Assembly: GCA_001800285.1 (NCBI GenBank)
Contig: MGVC01000081.1
Span: 52,856 to 116,855, forward strand
Length of the DNA stretch: 64,000 bases
Direction of reading: 5' to 3'
Source: Elusimicrobia bacterium RIFOXYA2_FULL_39_19
GTDB lineage: Bacteria > Elusimicrobiota > Endomicrobiia > CG1-02-37-114 > XYA2-FULL-39-19
Shown: positions 45,742 through 57,438 of the stretch, piece by piece
How the letters are laid out: the number at the start of each line of letters is the position of its first letter
How positions within the stretch are numbered: position 1 is the stretch's first letter
Notes under the pieces: generated by a model
Seen by the model: only the letters and a program-made list of their open reading frames with translations
Told to the model about the DNA's origin: nothing
Database searches by the model: none
Program-made: the position numbers and the translations under genes

Positions 45742-45770
45742 TTGACAAAAAAGTAATGTAGATATATAAT
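45742..45770 (+). promoter_or_regulatory. Sigma-70-type promoter of gdhA
   Basis: TTGACA (45742-45747), 17-nt spacer, TATAAT (45765-45770); exact consensus. Confidence 0.85.
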
Positions 45771-45790
45771 AATAACAAGAAAAAAGATAA

Positions 45791-45846
45791 GGACAAAGAC
45801 GTCCATAAAGTTCCCCGGAAGAGGGATTTTGTGGACGTCTTTTTTA
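45791..45846 (+). promoter_or_regulatory. gdhA leader: ANTAR-type hexaloop hairpin overlapping an intrinsic terminator
   Basis: Hairpin GGAC-AAAGAC-GTCC (45791-45804; loop A1, G4). Terminator 45798-45839, about 17-bp stem GACGTCCATAAAGTTCC/GGGATTTTGTGGACGTC, then T-run. Nucleotides 45798-45804 are shared. Confidence 0.8.
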
Positions 45847-45944
45847 TTGTATATAGCAAGGAAGCAGAAAATCAGCAACAGCAGTAAATGGGCACGTTGG
45901 CGTGTCTGCCGTTTAAAAAACATTGAGGTTAGGGGGATTAGGTT

Positions 45945-47294
45945 ATGTTAAACGAAGTATTAGCAAAAGTCATACAGAAGAACCCGGGAGAATCAGAGTA
46001 TTTGCAGGCAGTAGAAGAAGTTATGGAATCACTTCAGCCTACAGTTAAAAAGCACCCGGAATTTGTAAAAGCAAAGATTTATGAAAGAATAGTGGAGCCG
46101 GACAGAGTAATTATGTTCAGGGTTCCGTGGGTTGACGATAAAGGCGAAGTTCAGGTTAACAGGGGATTCAGAGTACAGTTTAATAATGCAATCGGGCCTT
46201 ACAAAGGCGGCTTAAGGTTTCACCCCAGCGTTAATCTGGGCATAATCAAGTTCCTTGGTTTTGAGCAGATATTTAAAAATGCGTTAACAACACTTCCAAT
46301 GGGCGGTGGAAAAGGCGGCTGTGATTTTGACCCCAAAGGAAAATCAGATAATGAAGTTATGAGGTTCTGTCAGGCATTCATGAGAGAACTTTTCAGGCAT
46401 ATCGGCCCGGATACAGATGTACCGGCAGGAGATATCGGCGTGGGCGGAAGAGAAATTGGTTACATGTATGGTTATTATAAAAAAATCATCAATGAACATA
46501 CCGGCGTTCTTACCGGCAAAGGGCTTGAATGGGGCGGAAGCCTAATAAGGCCTGAGGCAACAGGTTATGGCGCTACCTATTTTGCGGCAGAAATGTTAGC
46601 AACGCGCAACAAAGATTTTAAAGGTAAAACTGTGGCCGTAAGCGGTTCTGGAAATGTGGCCCAGTATACCATAGAAAAAGTAACACAGCTTGGCGGAAAG
46701 GTAATCTGTGCTTCCGATTCGTGCGGTACTGTAATTGATGAAAAGGGCTTTGATAAGGACAAACTAGCTTTTTTAATGGAGCTTAAAAATACAAAAAGAT
46801 GCAGAATAAACGAATATGCCGATAAATATGCCGTAAAATATTTTGAAGGCAAGAGCGTGTGGCAGGTATTAAGGGAACAGAGCATTAAAGTAGACGTGGC
46901 TTTTCCTGACGCAACGCAAAACGAAATAAACGGGGATGACGCCCAATCACTGGTAAATAAAGGCTGTATATGTGTTTCTGAAGGTGCCAATATGCCTTCT
47001 ACACCTGATGCAGTAAAAATCTTTATTGATAACAACGTGCTTTACGGTCCTGGAAAAGCGGCCAATGCCGGAGGGGTTGCTACCTCAGGCCTTGAAATGA
47101 GCCAAAACAGCGAAAGGCTGTCCTGGACCAGAGAAGAAGTTGACACCAGATTGCTTAATATAATGAAGAGTATTCATAAATCCTGCCTTGACGCCTCTGA
47201 AGCTTATGGCGCAAAAGGGAATTATGTTGTAGGAGCAAACATTTCCGGGTTTCTAAAAGTTGCAAAGGCAATGTTAGCCTTCGGAATTGTTTAA
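45945..47294 (+). CDS. gdhA: NADP-type glutamate dehydrogenase
   Basis: GPYKGGLRFHPSVNLGIIKFLGFEQIFKNALTTLPMGGGKGGCDFDPKGKSD. Confidence 0.97.
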   Translation: MLNEVLAKVIQKNPGESEYLQAVEEVMESLQPTVKKHPEFVKAKIYERIVEPDRVIMFRVPWVDDKGEVQVNRGFRVQFNNAIGPYKGGLRFHPSVNLGIIKFLGFEQIFKNALTTLPMGGGKGGCDFDPKGKSDNEVMRFCQAFMRELFRHIGPDTDVPAGDIGVGGREIGYMYGYYKKIINEHTGVLTGKGLEWGGSLIRPEATGYGATYFAAEMLATRNKDFKGKTVAVSGSGNVAQYTIEKVTQLGGKVICASDSCGTVIDEKGFDKDKLAFLMELKNTKRCRINEYADKYAVKYFEGKSVWQVLREQSIKVDVAFPDATQNEINGDDAQSLVNKGCICVSEGANMPSTPDAVKIFIDNNVLYGPGKAANAGGVATSGLEMSQNSERLSWTREEVDTRLLNIMKSIHKSCLDASEAYGAKGNYVVGANISGFLKVAKAMLAFGIV

Positions 47295-47307
47295 CACCCT
47301 CCGCGGA

Positions 47308-47425
47308 AATCCACGGTTATAAAGCCGTGGATGGATAGCGTTCGTCCGCTTCGGGTATTTCAGCGTAGAGATTGTTCCTGCGCTGTAGATTAGGCTTGAA
47401 TCCACGCCTACGAAGGCGTGGAGCT
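47308..47425. mobile_element. Candidate non-autonomous IS200/IS605-like element (pair of terminal hairpins)
   Basis: Two perfect 8-bp hairpins: ATCCACGG-ttataaag-CCGTGGAT and TCCACGCC-tacgaa-GGCGTGGA, resembling subterminal hairpins of IS200/IS605 family ends. No transposase. Confidence 0.35.
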
Positions 47426-47493
47426 TCAAACGGCAATTTGTTTAGTAGAGAATTTGATAATCTATAATAATGGTAGATGGATAAAGGATTTGA

Positions 47494-47598
47494 GGATACA
47501 TGGAAGTATCCTTAAGCCCTAAGTTACATTGAAGTAAAATTAGAACACTGACGTTCTTGAATGTCCTTTTTTATCGGGACAGGCAGGAACGTTTTTTT
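47494..47598 (+). promoter_or_regulatory. Dual-hairpin ANTAR target RNA plus intrinsic terminator in the leader of the ANTAR-glnA operon
   Basis: P1 GGATAC-ATGGAA-GTATCC (47494-47511). P2 AGAAC-ACTGAC-GTTCT (47542-47557). Both hexaloops have A1 and G4. Terminator ACGTTC...GAACGT (47551-47592) plus T-run shares 47551-47556 with P2. Confidence 0.85.
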
Positions 47599-47615
47599 TG
47601 GTAACGGGAAAGCTA

Positions 47616-48346
47616 TGGTAAAAACAAAAATAGAAAAAATGAATAAAAATGAACAGCCGTATATACAAATGACTGAGGCATTAATTAAGGTCGGTAATTT
47701 TATTGTATCAAGCAGTTCCTTTGAAGAAATGCTCAATAACATTGTTAAGACTATTGCTCAAGCATCTGGTGCTAAAATATGTTTGCTTATGTTTTATGAC
47801 GAAATTAAAAAAGAGCAGGCATTAAAAGCCTCGTATGGGTTAAATGTAGAATGCTTGACAGCTGTTGAGTTGGCAATAGGTAAAAACATTAATGATGCGG
47901 TAGCAAAAGAAAAGAAACCTGTTATTGTTTCAAATGTGTTGGAAGACTCTAGATTTGCAAATTCAGAAATAATTCGCAAAGAAAAGCTGTGTACTCTGCT
48001 TGCTTTGCCTTTATTGATGAAAGACAAGGTGCAGGGTATGATTATGCTTTACAACGAAAGAGTGAAAAAATATTCACAGAATGAGCTTAATATACTGCAG
48101 GTGCTTGCTAACCAGTCAATGCTGGTTATAGAAAATTCAAATTTATTGAAAAGAGCCGTTGATGCCGAAGAAGCACTTGAAGCCAGAAAACTGATTGAAA
48201 GAGCAAAAGGCATTCTTGTGAAAACCCAGGGAATGGATGAGGATGATGCCTACCGCACCATCCACCGCAAGAGTATGGACATGAGAAGATCTATGAAAGA
48301 AATTGCCGAAGCAATAATTCTTTCTAATGAAATAAGAAGAAAATAA
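47616..48346 (+). CDS. GAF-ANTAR domain antitermination regulator
   Basis: GAF region plus C-terminal ANTAR ARKLIERAKGILVKTQGMDEDDAYRTIHRKSMDMRRSMKEIAEAII. The ORF start at 47561 would lie inside the leader terminator; ATG 47616 or 47640 is more plausible. Confidence 0.9.
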
Positions 48347-48418
48347 AAAGGCACGTTGGCGTGCTTCCAGACGCAGATGTCTCCAGATAATGATGTTTAA
48401 ATTAAATGGAGGAAATGT

Positions 48419-48565
48419 ATGGAAGAAAAAGGAATTTGCATGTCTTGCGGTAATGAAAAAGAATGTATGTACATTAAGCCTGATTCTGTTATTTTTGAAT
48501 GTGAAGAACGTGACGCTGAAATCAAAAAAGGCAGTAAGAAAAGAAAGAAAAACACTAAAAAGTAA
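48419..48565 (+). CDS. 48-aa cysteine-containing small protein (missing from the ORF track)
   Basis: RBS ggagg; MEEKGICMSCGNEKECMYIKPDSVIFECEERDAEIKKGSKKRKKNTKK with CxxC-x6-C-x10-C pattern, between the ANTAR gene and glnA. Confidence 0.75.
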   Translation: MEEKGICMSCGNEKECMYIKPDSVIFECEERDAEIKKGSKKRKKNTKK

Positions 48566-48589: not shown

Positions 48590-50041
48590 ATGCAAAAGAA
48601 AAACAGGGCAGAATTAAAAAGGTTAAATAAGCTGATAAAAGAAAACAATGTTCAGATTGTTGACCTGAAATTTAATGACCTCCTGGGCATGTGGCAGCAT
48701 TTTTCTATCCCCGTGTCGGAATTAACCGAAATTGATGACCCGGAAAAATCCATTTGGTCGGAAGGTATAGGTTTTGACGGGTCCTCAATACGCGGGTTTC
48801 AGAAAATACAGGAATCAGACATGCTTATGCAATTGGACCCATCAACGGCAGTTTTTGACCCTATATGCAAGGTTCCTACTTTAAGCATTATCTGTAATAT
48901 TTATGACCCAATTACAAAAAAACCATATTCAAGGGACCCCAGGTTCGTTGCCAGAAAGGCAGCGGAATATTTGAAAAGTACCGGTATTGCAGACGAAAGT
49001 TTTTGGGGTCCTGAAATGGAGTTCTTTATATTCAATGATGTGCGTTTTGACCAGACAGAAAATACGGGTTACTATTTTATAGATTCAAACGAAGGAGAAT
49101 GGAACACCGGCAGGGATGAAAAACCGAATTTAGGGTACAAGCTCCGCTACAAAGAAGGAGGATTTTTGGTGCCTCCTCACGATACTCTGCAGGACTTAAG
49201 AACCGAGATGATTCAGGCGCTGATGAAAGCAGGCATAGGTATTGAACTCCATCATCATGAGGTTGCTACAGCGGGCCAGTGCGAAATAGATATGAAATTT
49301 GACAAACTGGTACCAATGGCTGATAAATGCATGATGTATAAATACATTATTAAAAATGTGGCAAAAAAACACAATATGGTGGCTACTTTTATGCCTAAAC
49401 CTTTATTTGGAGATAACGGAAGCGGCATGCATGCGCATCAATCTCTATGGAAAAAAGGAAAAAATATATTTTTTGATCCTAAGGGCTACGCACTGCTGTC
49501 ACAAACAGGCAAGTATTATATCGGCGGTCTGTTGAAGCATGCTCCCGCACTTATGGCTTTATGCGCACCAACAACAAATTCATATAAACGACTTGTTCCC
49601 GGTTACGAGGCTCCGATAAACCTTGCCTATTCAGCAAGAAACCGTTCTTCTGCCATACGTATTCCGGTTTATACAAATAATCCAAAAACAAAGAGGATTG
49701 AATTCAGACCGCCGGATTGTACCTGCAATCCTTATCTTGCTTTTGCAGCAATGCTCATGGCAGGTATCGACGGTATAAAAAACAAAATAGACCCGGGGCA
49801 ACCACTGGAAAAAAATACTTATGAGCTTGCAGGAGAGGAAGCGGCAAAAGTGCCTGTGGTTCCATCTTCCCTAGAAGAATCCATAAGAGCACTAGAAAAT
49901 GATAATAAATTTCTTTTTGAAGGCGGTGTGTTTACGCCTGATGTTATAAATGTGTGGGTTAATTATAAGAGAGACAAAGAAATAGGCGAAATACGCCTAA
50001 GGCCGAATCCTTATGAATTTATTTTATACTTTGATATGTAA
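48590..50041 (+). CDS. glnA: Type I glutamine synthetase
   Basis: [65 protein letters not shown]. Confidence 0.97.
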
Positions 50042-50053
50042 CGGAGAATTAAA

Positions 50054-51133
50054 ATGCAATTAATGGCAGACAGGGATTACAAAATTTCATCGGCGTGCGG
50101 AGTGCTAGGCATAATGAATGAAAACGGCAGGCGTTTTTCCGGTGAAAACATTATGAAAGGCATTGCCCTCATGAGAGAACGGTCCAACGGGCTTGGCGGC
50201 GGTTTTGCAGCTCACGGCATTTACCCGGATTACAAGGATTATTATGCGTTTCATATGCTCTTTGAAACTGAAATTGCAAAAAACATAACGGAAGAATATT
50301 TTAAATTGCATTACAAATTCATTAAAAGCGAACCTATTCCTACACGGCAGATTCCGGAAATAAAAAACAGCCCGTTAATCTGGCGTTATTTCTTAGAGCC
50401 GAAAAATATAGGTGTATTTGAAACAGAAAGTGATTTTGTTGTCAGCACGGTTATGCATATAAACCAGAATATCAAAGATGCTTTTGTAGCGTCTTCCGGA
50501 AAAAACATGGGCGTATTCAAAGGAGTGGGTTATCCTGAAGATATAGGCAGGTTTTTCAGGCTTGAAGAGTACGGCGCCTACATTTGGACCGCGCACGGCA
50601 GGTTTCCTACAAATACGGTGGCGTGGTGGGGCGGTGCGCACCCATTTGGACTTTTAGACTGGACAGTAGTGCATAACGGGGAAATATCATCTTACGGGAT
50701 AAATAAAAGATACCTGGAAAATTACGGTTACAAATGCAGTTTCTTTACAGATACTGAAGTTATCACATATTTATTTGACCTATTAATAAGGAAGCATGAG
50801 CTTCCTATAGAAATGGCAGCCAAAGTGGTAGCGGCTACTTTCTGGAGCGAAATAGACAGGCTTCCGGAAAAACAGAAAGAACTTCATGAGACTTTAAGAA
50901 TAATTTACAGCAGTGCTTTATTAAACGGGCCGTTTGCTGTAATACTGGCAAACAACAATATGATGGTAGGCATAAATGACCGCATAAAATTAAGGCCTCT
51001 TGTAGCTGCCAGGAAAGATGATTTTGTTTTTGTTTCATCCGAAGAATCCGCCATTCGTGAAACGGAACCGGTGCTTGATGAGGTGTGGACGCCAAAAGGC
51101 GGAGAACCGGTAATTGGAAGACTGAAAATATAA
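50054..51133 (+). CDS. Class II glutamine amidotransferase (glutamate synthase domain 1)
   Basis: [73 protein letters not shown]. Confidence 0.9.
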
Positions 51134-51137
51134 AAAA

Positions 51138-51212
51138 GTGATTAAGTGATTATGTGAATAGGTGATTAGTAAAATCTTTTACTAACGACGTAACCACTAA
51201 CCACATATACAC
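51138..51212. repeat. GTGATTA/TAACCAC interspersed inverted repeat, copy 1
   Basis: gtgattaagtgattatgtgaataggtgattag...ctaacgacgtaaccactaaccacatatacac. Confidence 0.7.
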
Positions 51213-51231
51213 AAGATTATGAGGGAATAAA

Positions 51232-52773
51232 ATGGTTAAAAGAACAGCTCCTACGGAATTTATAGTTGAACGTGATGAAGATAAATGCATTCAGTGCCAG
51301 GTCTGCTGCAGAATGTGTTCCAACGATGCACATGTCTTTGAAGAAGATTTAAACGAAGTAATAACGGAACATAAAAAATGCGTAGGCTGTCACTTCTGTG
51401 AAACTTTATGCCCAACGGGTGCGCTGGAAGTAAAAAGAAGTACTTCTGAAACCAGAGCTAACGCCAACTGGACCAAAAAAGCGCTGACGGATATTACCAA
51501 ACAAGCAGAAACAGGCGGCATACTGCTTACCGGTATGGGTTGTGACAGGCCGTATCCTATTTACTGGGACCACATGCTGATAAACGCCTCCCAGGTTACC
51601 AACCCTTCCATTGACCCTCTGCGCGAGCCTATGGAATTAAAAACGTATATCGGCAAAAAACCGGACCGCATAGAAATAGTAACTCATTTGGAAAACGGCA
51701 AAATTGACCCGTCAAAAGTTGAACTGAAAACCAAACTTTCCACAATGCTTAAAATAGAAACACCCATTATGTTTTCAGCTATGTCTTACGGGTCCATAAG
51801 TTATAATGCCTGCACTTCGCTTGCCCGGGCGGCCCAGCAGTCAGGCACTCTGTATAATACCGGCGAAGGCGGCCTTCATAAGGATTTGTATAAATATGCG
51901 GGAAACACCATCGTACAGGTAGCTTCCGGAAGATTCGGCGTGCATAAACAATATCTGGAAGCAGGCGTAGCCATAGAAATTAAAATAGGCCAGGGCGCAA
52001 AACCCGGCATTGGCGGGCATTTACCCGGAGAAAAAGTATCTGAGGATGTGTCCCAGACAAGAATGATACCAGTTGGTAGTGATGCTATTTCTCCGGCCCC
52101 GCACCATGACATTTATTCCATTGAAGATTTAAGGCAGTTAATCTATGCCTTAAAAGAAGCCACCAGATATAAAAAACCAATCGGCGTAAAAATATCCGCG
52201 GTGCATAACGTAGCGCCTATAGCCAGCGGTGTAGTAAGAGCCGGCGCAGATTATGTGGTAATAGACGGTTTGCGCGGAGGCACGGGCGCTGCTCCTACGG
52301 TTATCAGAGACAATGTAGGTATTCCTATAGAACTGGCACTGGCGGTGGTTGATGCAAGGCTTAGGGAAGAGGGTGTAAGAAACCACGCGTCTATTATTGC
52401 CGCAGGCGGATTCAGAAATTCAGGAGATGTTTTGAAAGCTATTGCCCTCGGTGCAGATGCGGTTTATATAGGCACGTCAGCGCTTATTGCCATGGGCTGT
52501 CATGTATGCCAGAAATGTTACACCGGAAAATGTAACTGGGGTATTGCCACGCAGGACCCGTATTTAACTAAAAGATTAAATCCGGAAATCGGTGCTCAGA
52601 GATTATCAAACTTAATCCGGGCCTGGTCCCGCGAGATAAAAGAAATGCTCGGCGGTATGGGTATTAACTCTATAGATAGTTTAAGGGGCAACAGGGAACA
52701 ATTAAGGGCCATTGGCCTTTCAGATACAGACATGAAACTGCTGGGGTTAAAACCGGCAGGCGAAGCGTGGTAA
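51232..52773 (+). CDS. FMN-binding glutamate synthase catalytic subunit with N-terminal 2x[4Fe-4S] (archaeal type)
   Basis: CIQCQVCCRMCSNDAH...CVGCHFCETLCPTGAL; GRFGVHKQYLEAGVAIEIKIGQGAKPGIGGHLPGEKV; GADYVVIDGLRGGTGAAP. Confidence 0.92.
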   Translation: MVKRTAPTEFIVERDEDKCIQCQVCCRMCSNDAHVFEEDLNEVITEHKKCVGCHFCETLCPTGALEVKRSTSETRANANWTKKALTDITKQAETGGILLTGMGCDRPYPIYWDHMLINASQVTNPSIDPLREPMELKTYIGKKPDRIEIVTHLENGKIDPSKVELKTKLSTMLKIETPIMFSAMSYGSISYNACTSLARAAQQSGTLYNTGEGGLHKDLYKYAGNTIVQVASGRFGVHKQYLEAGVAIEIKIGQGAKPGIGGHLPGEKVSEDVSQTRMIPVGSDAISPAPHHDIYSIEDLRQLIYALKEATRYKKPIGVKISAVHNVAPIASGVVRAGADYVVIDGLRGGTGAAPTVIRDNVGIPIELALAVVDARLREEGVRNHASIIAAGGFRNSGDVLKAIALGADAVYIGTSALIAMGCHVCQKCYTGKCNWGIATQDPYLTKRLNPEIGAQRLSNLIRAWSREIKEMLGGMGINSIDSLRGNREQLRAIGLSDTDMKLLGLKPAGEAW

Positions 52774-52793
52774 TTCTGACTGAAGTAAAAAAA

Positions 52794-52915
52794 GGTGATT
52801 ATGTGATTAGTTGTTAGTGATTACGCATAGCATCATTGCAATATCCAATAAAGGGAAAAATAAGGATCAGTAAGTCTTTTACTAAACACTTAACCACGTA
52901 ACCACTAAGCACTTA
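52794..52915. repeat. GTGATTA/TAACCAC interspersed inverted repeat, copy 2
   Basis: ggtgattatgtgattagttgttagtgattacg...cttttactaaacacttaaccacgtaaccactaagcact. Confidence 0.7.
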
Positions 52916-55685: not shown

Positions 55686-55705
55686 AAAAACAGGAATGAA
55701 AAAAT

Positions 55706-55822
55706 GGTGATTATGTGATTAGTCGTTAGTGATTACGTTTAGTATCCTTGTAATATCAAATAAAATAAAAAACAAGGATTAGTGCTTCACTAAGCACGTA
55801 ACCACTTAACCACATAAACACT
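55706..55822. repeat. GTGATTA/TAACCAC interspersed inverted repeat, copy 3
   Basis: ggtgattatgtgattagtcgttagtgattacg...cttcactaagcacgtaaccacttaaccacataaacac. Confidence 0.7.
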
Positions 55823-55933
55823 TCAAGGGTGGTTAGTGCATACCCGCTGTTAACAAACATGGTATAACCACGAAATAACGCGGATTACTTATAAAAATGC
55901 AATGAATGCTGCCGTTTAAGTAACCAGTTATCA

Positions 55934-56011
55934 GGAACAATAGTGTTCCAGCAAGTAGAATGAACTACCGTTTCAGTAAGCTTCGGTATACTTGTCGGAA
56001 CACTTTTTTAT
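55934..56011 (+). promoter_or_regulatory. amt leader attenuator: small hairpin overlapping a long intrinsic terminator
   Basis: Hairpin GGAAC-AATAGT-GTTCC (55934-55949). Terminator AGTGTTCCAGCAAGTA (55942-55957)/TACTTGTCGGAACACT (55989-56004), 15 of 16 pairs, then TTTTTT. The arms are mutually exclusive. Confidence 0.7.
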
Positions 56012-56044
56012 TTATAGGGCAAAAAGATTATACGGAGGAGTAAT

Positions 56045-57358
56045 ATGAAACTTTTAGTTAGATTGAGTTTGTTGTCAACGGCTTTAATAAGTGCCTGCCC
56101 GCTTTTTGCGCAAACCGCAGAAGCCCTGCCGGCTGTTAATTCAGGTGACACGGCCTGGGTGTTAATTTCCACCGCGCTTGTAATGCTTATGACTTTGCCG
56201 GGGCTTGCCCTGTTTTACGGCGGGTTGGTAAGAAAGAAGAATGTGTTAAGTATTCTGATGCAATGCGCCATAATGCTTTGTGTAATAAGCCTGCAATGGG
56301 TTTTGTTCGGTTACAGTTTATCATTCGGCCCGGAAAAAGGTTTTTGGGGCGGGCTTGAATGGTTTGCACTTAAAGGTGTGGGGCTGGAACCGTACCCGGC
56401 TTATGCCGCCACAATTCCGCATCAGCTGTTTATGATATTTCAGGCAATGTTTGCGGTGATAACTCCCGCACTTATCATTGGCGCGTTTGCAGAAAGAATG
56501 AAGTTTTCTGCTTTCTTGTTGTTCGGTGTGCTATGGTCCACTTTTGTTTATGCTCCTATTGCTCACTGGGTGTGGGGTATAGACGGCTGGTTAAGAAATC
56601 TGGGCGCGCTGGATTTTGCGGGAGGCACGGTAGTTCATATAAATGCCGGTATTGCCGCTATTGTAACGGCTATTGTTATAGGCAAAAGAAAAGGCCTTGA
56701 TTCACCAATCCGGCCGCACAATCTGCCGTTTACTGTAATGGGTGCCGGGTTATTGTGGTTTGGCTGGTTCGGGTTTAATGCAGGCAGTGCGCTGGCGGCA
56801 AACGGTATTGCGGTAAATGCTTTTGTAGTTACCAACACAGCAGCGGCGGCTGCGGGGCTTACGTGGGCCTTGCTTGAATGGCTGCGTAACGGCAAATCCA
56901 CAACTCTTGGTGTTGCCACGGGTGCCGTAGCCGGATTAGTTGCTATTACTCCTGCGGCAGGGTTTGTAAGTATAATTCCTGCCATGATAATCGGTATGGG
57001 GGTAAGCATATTGTGCTTTGTTATGGTTGATTTTGTTAAACCAAAGCTGGGCTATGATGATTCACTGGATGCTTTTGGCGTGCACGGGATAGGCGGTATA
57101 TGGGGCGCTTTAGCTACGGGATTATTTGCATCTAAAGCTGTCAATTCTGCCGGAGCAGACGGCCTGTTTTTTGGAAATCCGGGGTTGTTTTTAATTCAGC
57201 TTAAAACGGTTTTAGTAACCATCGGTTACAGTTTTATAATGACTTTGATAATCTATAAACTGGTTGATATGTTAATAGGTGTAAGGGCAAAAGATAAAGA
57301 AGAAGCTATTGGACTGGATTTGACTGAGCACAACGAAGGCGCGTATACAGTACTTTAA
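56045..57358 (+). CDS. amt: Ammonium transporter
   Basis: Signal peptide; GDTAWVLISTALVMLMTLPGLALFYGGLVRKKN, FAGGTVVHINAGIAA, DDSLDAFGVHGIGGIWGALATGLF. Confidence 0.97.
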   Translation: MKLLVRLSLLSTALISACPLFAQTAEALPAVNSGDTAWVLISTALVMLMTLPGLALFYGGLVRKKNVLSILMQCAIMLCVISLQWVLFGYSLSFGPEKGFWGGLEWFALKGVGLEPYPAYAATIPHQLFMIFQAMFAVITPALIIGAFAERMKFSAFLLFGVLWSTFVYAPIAHWVWGIDGWLRNLGALDFAGGTVVHINAGIAAIVTAIVIGKRKGLDSPIRPHNLPFTVMGAGLLWFGWFGFNAGSALAANGIAVNAFVVTNTAAAAAGLTWALLEWLRNGKSTTLGVATGAVAGLVAITPAAGFVSIIPAMIIGMGVSILCFVMVDFVKPKLGYDDSLDAFGVHGIGGIWGALATGLFASKAVNSAGADGLFFGNPGLFLIQLKTVLVTIGYSFIMTLIIYKLVDMLIGVRAKDKEEAIGLDLTEHNEGAYTVL

Positions 57359-57361
57359 TAA

Positions 57362-57438
57362 TTAAGTGATTACGTGGATAGGTGGCTACGTGATTAGTTA
57401 TTAACTAAACACATAATCACATAAGCACTTAACCACTG
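57362..57438. repeat. GTGATTA/TAACCAC interspersed inverted repeat, copy 4
   Basis: ttaagtgattacgtggataggtggctacgtgattag...ctaaacacataatcacataagcacttaaccactg. Confidence 0.7.

Follow-up and report, generated by a model that had tools for sequence, protein, structure and literature searches.

A candidate ANTAR-type antitermination leader with a single hexaloop upstream of gdhA in an Elusimicrobiota bacterium

The gdhA locus and its GAF-ANTAR gene

In the window (the whole stretch of 64,000 nucleotides of Elusimicrobia bacterium RIFOXYA2_FULL_39_19 that was analysed), the gene order given by Pfam is gdhA, a GAF-ANTAR gene, glutamine synthetase, glutamate synthase domains, an ammonium transporter and a P-II protein, with the GAF-ANTAR gene as the next gene directly downstream of gdhA (Table 1). 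The genome contains two ANTAR genes, one of them in this position directly after gdhA. The second GAF-ANTAR gene (L001) lies beside a radical-SAM-like gene and an iron–sulfur protein gene, and no hexaloop with A at loop position 1 and G at loop position 4 (A1/G4) was found just upstream of it. With Rfam at gathering thresholds, the sole match in the whole window was a tRNA and the gdhA leader was unmatched.

Table 1. Coordinates of the features of the gdhA locus within the window
Feature	Position	Strand	Basis
gdhA promoter TTGACA-17-TATAAT, consensus sigma-70-type	45742..45770	+	12/12 match
Single ANTAR-type hexaloop hairpin GGAC-AAAGAC-GTCC (A1, G4, C-G closing pair)	45791..45804	+	sequence
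gdhA leader intrinsic terminator with a run of six T, its 5' arm supplied by the hexaloop hairpin (loop and 3' arm)	45795..45845	+	folding
gdhA, glutamate dehydrogenase, 449 aa, putative controlled gene	45945..47294	+	Pfam PF00208 + PF02812
Hexaloop 1 of the GAF-ANTAR leader, TTGAGGATAC-ATGGAA-GTATCCTTAA	47490..47515	+	
Hexaloop 2 of the GAF-ANTAR leader, TTAC-ATTGAA-GTAA	47524..47537	+	
Hexaloop 3 of the GAF-ANTAR leader, AGAAC-ACTGAC-GTTCT, overlapping the terminator	47542..47557	+	
GAF-ANTAR leader intrinsic terminator, eight T at its end	47550..47600	+	
GAF-ANTAR protein, predicted regulator of both leaders	47615..48346	+	Pfam GAF PF01590 + ANTAR PF03861
Glutamine synthetase and glutamate synthase genes, downstream of the GAF-ANTAR gene	48590..52773	+	Pfam

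The ATG listed for the GAF-ANTAR gene, at 47561, falls within the terminator of its own leader, and the ATG at 47615 is the likely start. The ANTAR domain of the encoded protein aligns with those of EutV (6WSH/6WW6) and Rv1626 and matches NasR. Focusing on the eleven RNA-contact residues of EutV, as taken from PMC8934654, seven are identical in the GAF-ANTAR protein (R142, K143, K149, E160, Y164, M172 and R175), and the alignment gives conservative replacements at two further positions (K147R and N173D) and changes at the remaining two (R168H and R177S).

The leader of the GAF-ANTAR gene carries three hexaloops within 70 nt, each with A1 and G4 and closed by C-G, separated by linkers of 8 and 4 nt, and the 3' arm of the third is also the 5' arm of the terminator (leader fold z -6.3). 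Such a tandem triple of C-G-closed A1/G4 hexaloops (within 100 nt) occurs once in the 5.0 million strand-bases scanned, that is, in both strands of 2.5 Mb or 81% of the genome. Judged by its sequence, this is a self-regulated ANTAR leader. The interval between the GAF-ANTAR gene and the glutamine synthetase gene (glnA) contains no predicted terminator.

Several other elements were noticed in the cluster. The leader of the ammonium transporter gene (55930-56015) shares the architecture of the gdhA leader, with a terminator that takes its 5' arm from the 3' arm of the hairpin GGAAC-AATAGT-GTTCC, but has A instead of G at loop position 4. The genome has two copies of the hairpin GGCAC-GTTGGC-GTG(T/C)C, each inside the nitrogen cluster (45889-45906 and 48349-48365). 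In the genome G003, the loop GTTGGC in GAAGAC-GTTGGC-GTCTTC overlaps the leader terminator of a GAF-ANTAR gene and is preceded by GATAC-GTTGTT-GTGTC. The GTTGGC hairpins may represent another type of loop, although pairing of G1 with C6 is possible; GGCAC-GTTGGC-GTG(T/C)C was tried as a P1, as a sigma-54 site (the GG-N10-GC spacing is not present) and as a G1/G4 hexaloop, and none of these was adopted. At 48378-48418, pairing is possible between UCUCCA and UGGAGG, which looks like the ribosome site of a small Cys-containing frame (48419-48565) that precedes glutamine synthetase; a competing hairpin, AGAC-GCAGAT-GTCT, would release UGGAGG. This segment may be a translational switch. The spacers at 51133-51215, 52780-52915, 55694-55830 and 57358-57437, which separate genes of the cluster, consist of 8-nt-periodic runs of GTGATTAx and, after them, runs of TAACCACx that are roughly complementary, and L046 has spacers resembling them. 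Inverted repeats at 47300-47435, between gdhA and the GAF-ANTAR leader, look by eye like an IS200/IS605-type remnant.

The gdhA leader and its overlapping folds

The promoter upstream of gdhA agrees with the consensus at 12/12 positions, as in the preliminary description, with the -35 element TTGACA at 45742-45747, a spacer of 17 nt and TATAAT ending at 45770. The exact 17-spaced consensus occurs in 21 copies in 2.5 Mb, counting both strands, and the gdhA genes of relatives are preceded by similar promoters. Transcription of gdhA is predicted to start near 45777. On the + strand, the interval from the terminator to the gdhA ATG contains no promoter-like match of at least 9/12, and transcripts from the promoter at 45742-45770 must therefore cross the terminator to reach gdhA.

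The hexaloop hairpin described previously is present downstream of the predicted start, beginning 20 nt past the -10 element; its A1/G4 loop, AAAGAC, occupies 45795-45800, and its stem GGAC/GTCC has 4 bp closed by C-G, compared with the at least 3 bp and C-G closing pair taken from NasR SELEX. The terminator had been described as a stem of roughly 17 bp that shares GACGTCC with the hairpin. The overlap holds, and the stem at 45795-45842 has 17 pairs before the T run and 20 when the three A-U pairs are included; the uninterrupted T run after GACGTC comprises six T (45840-45845), and not the seven given earlier. The terminator lies 99 nt upstream of the gdhA ATG, in keeping with the earlier figure of about 100 nt. 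A 10-nt segment, AAAGACGTCC, is common to the hexaloop hairpin, where it forms the loop and the 3' arm, and to the terminator, where it forms the 5' arm, and the two folds are thus mutually exclusive. The RNA at 45777-45850 folds with z = -7.5 relative to shuffles. Since the isolated hexaloop hairpin has a folding energy of only -4.0 kcal/mol, against -29 kcal/mol for the terminator, the terminator wins without a ligand, and the resting state of the leader is 'stop'. A 3-bp hexaloop, AAC-ATTGAG-GTT (45919-45930), just 5' of the gdhA ribosome site, is compatible with chance.

From the predicted start to the hexaloop hairpin there are only 14 nt, rich in A, and therefore no P1 can fit in the leader with a start near 45777; no second A1/G4 hexaloop of at least 4 bp was found in it. 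The arrangement of two hairpins (P1 and P2) joined by a short linker is thus absent from the gdhA leader and present in the GAF-ANTAR leader, which has three. The single hairpin is the sole feature in which the gdhA leader departs from known ANTAR attenuators. Both the earlier observation of one visible hexaloop with no P1 and the wording 'minimal single-hairpin ANTAR site or variant' are borne out by this anatomy.

Among 3000 dinucleotide-shuffled versions of the leader (45771-45944), some A1/G4 hexaloop appeared in 3.6%, and an A1/G4 hexaloop overlapping a terminator appeared in none (0/3000). Over the 2.5 Mb, overlap with a terminator-like stem was seen for 132 hexaloop hairpins regardless of loop sequence, nine of them A1/G4 (either strand), and this proportion is not above that of other loop classes; an argument from genome-wide A1/G4 enrichment was accordingly dropped, there being none among terminator-overlapping hexaloops. 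Six of the nine A1/G4 overlaps fall within open frames that are 120 codons or longer; the other three include the gdhA leader and the GAF-ANTAR gene leader, 1.75 kb apart. A second exact match to GACAANGNCGTC in the genome (C38) sits inside an apparent gene. The bare architecture of a hexaloop overlapping a terminator is not diagnostic, and the case rests on context and on comparative evidence.

Hexaloops upstream of gdhA in related and other bacteria

The comparison covered 350-nt gdhA leaders from 19 genomes of the same class, in which hexaloop hairpins of at least 4 bp were collected. A1/G4 was found in 16 of 56 such hairpins, against an expectation of 5.3% from the window's own genome (p 2e-8), and in 10 of 22 when the window and the largest family were excluded (p 6e-8); these binomial p-values count related genomes as independent and are optimistic. 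All seven families with readable gdhA leaders have at least one A1/G4 hexaloop. The closing pair played no part in selecting the A1/G4 hexaloops, and it is C-G in 15 of the 16, compared with a genome background of 27% (p 4e-8, optimistic in the same way). The letters of the stems vary among families and loop positions 1 and 4 are constant, as expected for RNA recognition.

The gdhA leader of L040 is a textbook pair, AGGGAC-AAAGGC-GTCCCT and TGGAC-AAAGAT-GTCCG. In G003, which belongs to the same order, the gdhA leader (L038) carries one hexaloop, ACGGGC-AACGGA-GTCCGT, which in our reading overlaps a weaker terminator. In the largest family, the gdhA leaders of several genomes have no hexaloop, or have one nested inside the terminator loop; the nested topology was seen for the A1/G4 hexaloop in L043, L045, L046, L049 and L050, for example as GAAAGC-AAGGAC-GCTTTC within a long terminator loop and not overlapping its arm. 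In G002, of the same family as the window's genome and with a gdhA 85% identical, GGTAC-AATGAG-GTATT at the predicted 5' end contains two G-U pairs, is not followed by a T-run terminator and was left uncounted.

Across 61 genomes, the 14-mer pattern GGACAANGRYGTCC, placed by coordinate, occurs upstream of gdhA in G000, G035 and G050 (twice), upstream of glutamine synthetase III in G021, G024, G035, G039 and G043, and upstream of amt in G039 and G043; the very 14-mer of the gdhA hairpin lies upstream of the glutamine synthetase III genes of G035 and G024. The 23 matches in the 61 genomes are not above the reversed-pattern control, and it is their placement, not their number, that stands out as non-random.

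A Fibrobacter MAG from outside the class, whose genome encodes an ANTAR protein, has a textbook dual ANTAR attenuator as its gdhA leader (L090), with GCTGAAC-AAAGAT-GTTCAGC, a short linker, GTATC-AAAGAT-GATGC and a terminator with eight T. An apparent single-hexaloop case in a Desulfatitalea genome with ANTAR (L074) was rejected, as the hexaloop lies within what reads as the coding end of the upstream gene.

Proposed mechanism, alternatives and relation to known systems

The assignment of the gdhA leader to ANTAR control, made in the preliminary description, gains support from the adjacent GAF-ANTAR gene, from the tandem-hexaloop leader of that gene with its terminator, and from the comparative statistics of loop and closing pair. 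We consider it probable (roughly 0.78) that the activated GAF-ANTAR protein binds the lone hexaloop and lets the polymerase read into gdhA, that is, that it acts by antitermination. The polymerase would start near 45777 and make a short leader, and without active regulator the terminator at 45795-45842 would form and transcription would end near 45845. When a signal switches the GAF domain of the protein encoded next to gdhA, the ANTAR dimer would bind the AAAGAC hexaloop once about 28 nt of RNA exist and would keep GACGTCC in the small hairpin, whereby the terminator would be blocked and readthrough into gdhA would follow. The GAF-ANTAR protein would also control its own gene via the triple-hexaloop leader, with the glutamine synthetase and glutamate synthase genes that follow probably included, so that both ammonium-assimilation routes would stand under one RNA-binding regulator, gdhA responding via one hexaloop without a loading hairpin.

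The eut leaders of Enterococcus faecalis (PMC3369931 and PMC8934654) resemble the gdhA leader in that the 3' arm of an A1/G4 hexaloop is the 5' arm of a terminator and the regulator, EutV, is an ANTAR protein, whereas they contain P1 and P2 joined by a short constrained linker and respond to a REC-ANTAR protein, in place of the one hexaloop and GAF-ANTAR protein of the present case. The nasF leader of Klebsiella likewise has C-G-closed A1/G4 hexaloops, serves nitrogen assimilation and is read by a one-component sensor-ANTAR fusion, NasR, but differs in its NIT nitrate sensor, its two hairpins and the weak binding of a lone P2, which NasR bound only at ~12 uM (PMC7496416); SELEX with NasR independently yields C:G closing, A1 and G4 (PMC7496416). 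The ANTAR nitrogen regulons of Desulfotomaculum and Pelobacter have sites before glutamate synthase, glutamine synthetase, amt, P-II and nitrogenase genes; these sites are dual, and in the available text of PMC3369931 glutamate dehydrogenase is not among the named target types. In Paracoccus denitrificans, where NasS restrains the ANTAR protein NasT, a nasS mutant on nitrate has a raised gdhA transcript, which hints at an ANTAR influence on gdhA; this system differs in its nasA leader and NasS nitrate sensor, and the available part of PMC5424462 describes no leader site for gdhA.

With respect to the number of hexaloops, eutP induction is strongly reduced or abolished by P1 mutations or a changed linker (PMC3369931), and linker extension prevents antitermination in vitro, though only a single hexaloop is contacted by the dimer at any time (PMC8934654). 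In the structural model for ANTAR proteins, one dimer grips a single hexaloop and cycles from P1 to P2 against the moving polymerase (PMC8934654), and the same authors anticipate single sites in settings where the timing of the polymerase imposes no limit. For the single site of gdhA, which lies on a terminator, timing ought to be limiting. Completion of the terminator follows that of the hexaloop hairpin by only about 35 nt, and with a four-pair stem of -4.0 kcal/mol facing a terminator of -29 kcal/mol, the lone site may be too slow. The published need for two hexaloops, the weak stem and this short gap mean that the gdhA hexaloop could be decayed or only weakly responsive. The main rival reading, an unlikely one, is that a dual ANTAR site once present at gdhA has degenerated and lost its P1, with binding too weak or too slow, and that the leader is mainly a constitutive partial terminator giving a low level of gdhA. 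The requirement for dual hexaloops reported in PMC8934654, PMC7496416 and PMC3369931, the dual gdhA sites in relatives of other families (P1 and P2 in L040, and L035) and the great stability of the gdhA terminator suit such decay, but the consensus of the gdhA hexaloop is intact (A1, G4, C-G), the same-order genome G003 (L038) likewise has a single hexaloop overlapping its terminator, and at 14 nt from the predicted start no remnant of a P1 is left.

Two further readings were considered. As a palindromic repeat near the predicted start that includes GACGTC, a perfect DNA palindrome, GGAC-N6-GTCC might be taken for an operator in the DNA shortly past the start, with the terminator serving something else; an operator would conserve its arms rather than an unpaired loop, however, whereas in relatives the stems co-vary (GGAC/GTCC, GGGC/GTCC, GAAAGC/GCTTTC and GCCGC/GCGGC) with constant loop positions 1 and 4 and a constant closing pair, and a hairpin arm is common to a terminator, which leaves this reading very improbable. 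It is equally far-fetched, in our estimate, that promoter and terminator make a stand-alone RNA of ~65 nt, for example an ANTAR decoy like EutX/rli55, with gdhA transcribed from elsewhere. The spacing of promoter and terminator fits a small RNA and decoys of this kind exist for EutV (PMC8934654), but the terminated RNA cannot display the hexaloop, as its arm is used by the terminator, and would be a poor decoy; the absence of a promoter-like match (at least 9/12) from the terminator to the gdhA ATG also speaks against it.

It is about an even chance that one hexaloop suffices in nature for ANTAR antitermination and that, within one cluster, the same GAF-ANTAR protein serves the triple and the single leader, the number of hexaloops tuning the strength of the response with no fixed two-hairpin code. 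A natural single-hexaloop antiterminator beside a triple one, under the same predicted regulator, would make the structural model directly testable. With antitermination of this kind, glutamate dehydrogenase would share the RNA-level control of the glutamine synthetase/glutamate synthase route, and gdhA would be linked to ANTAR control across several bacterial families.
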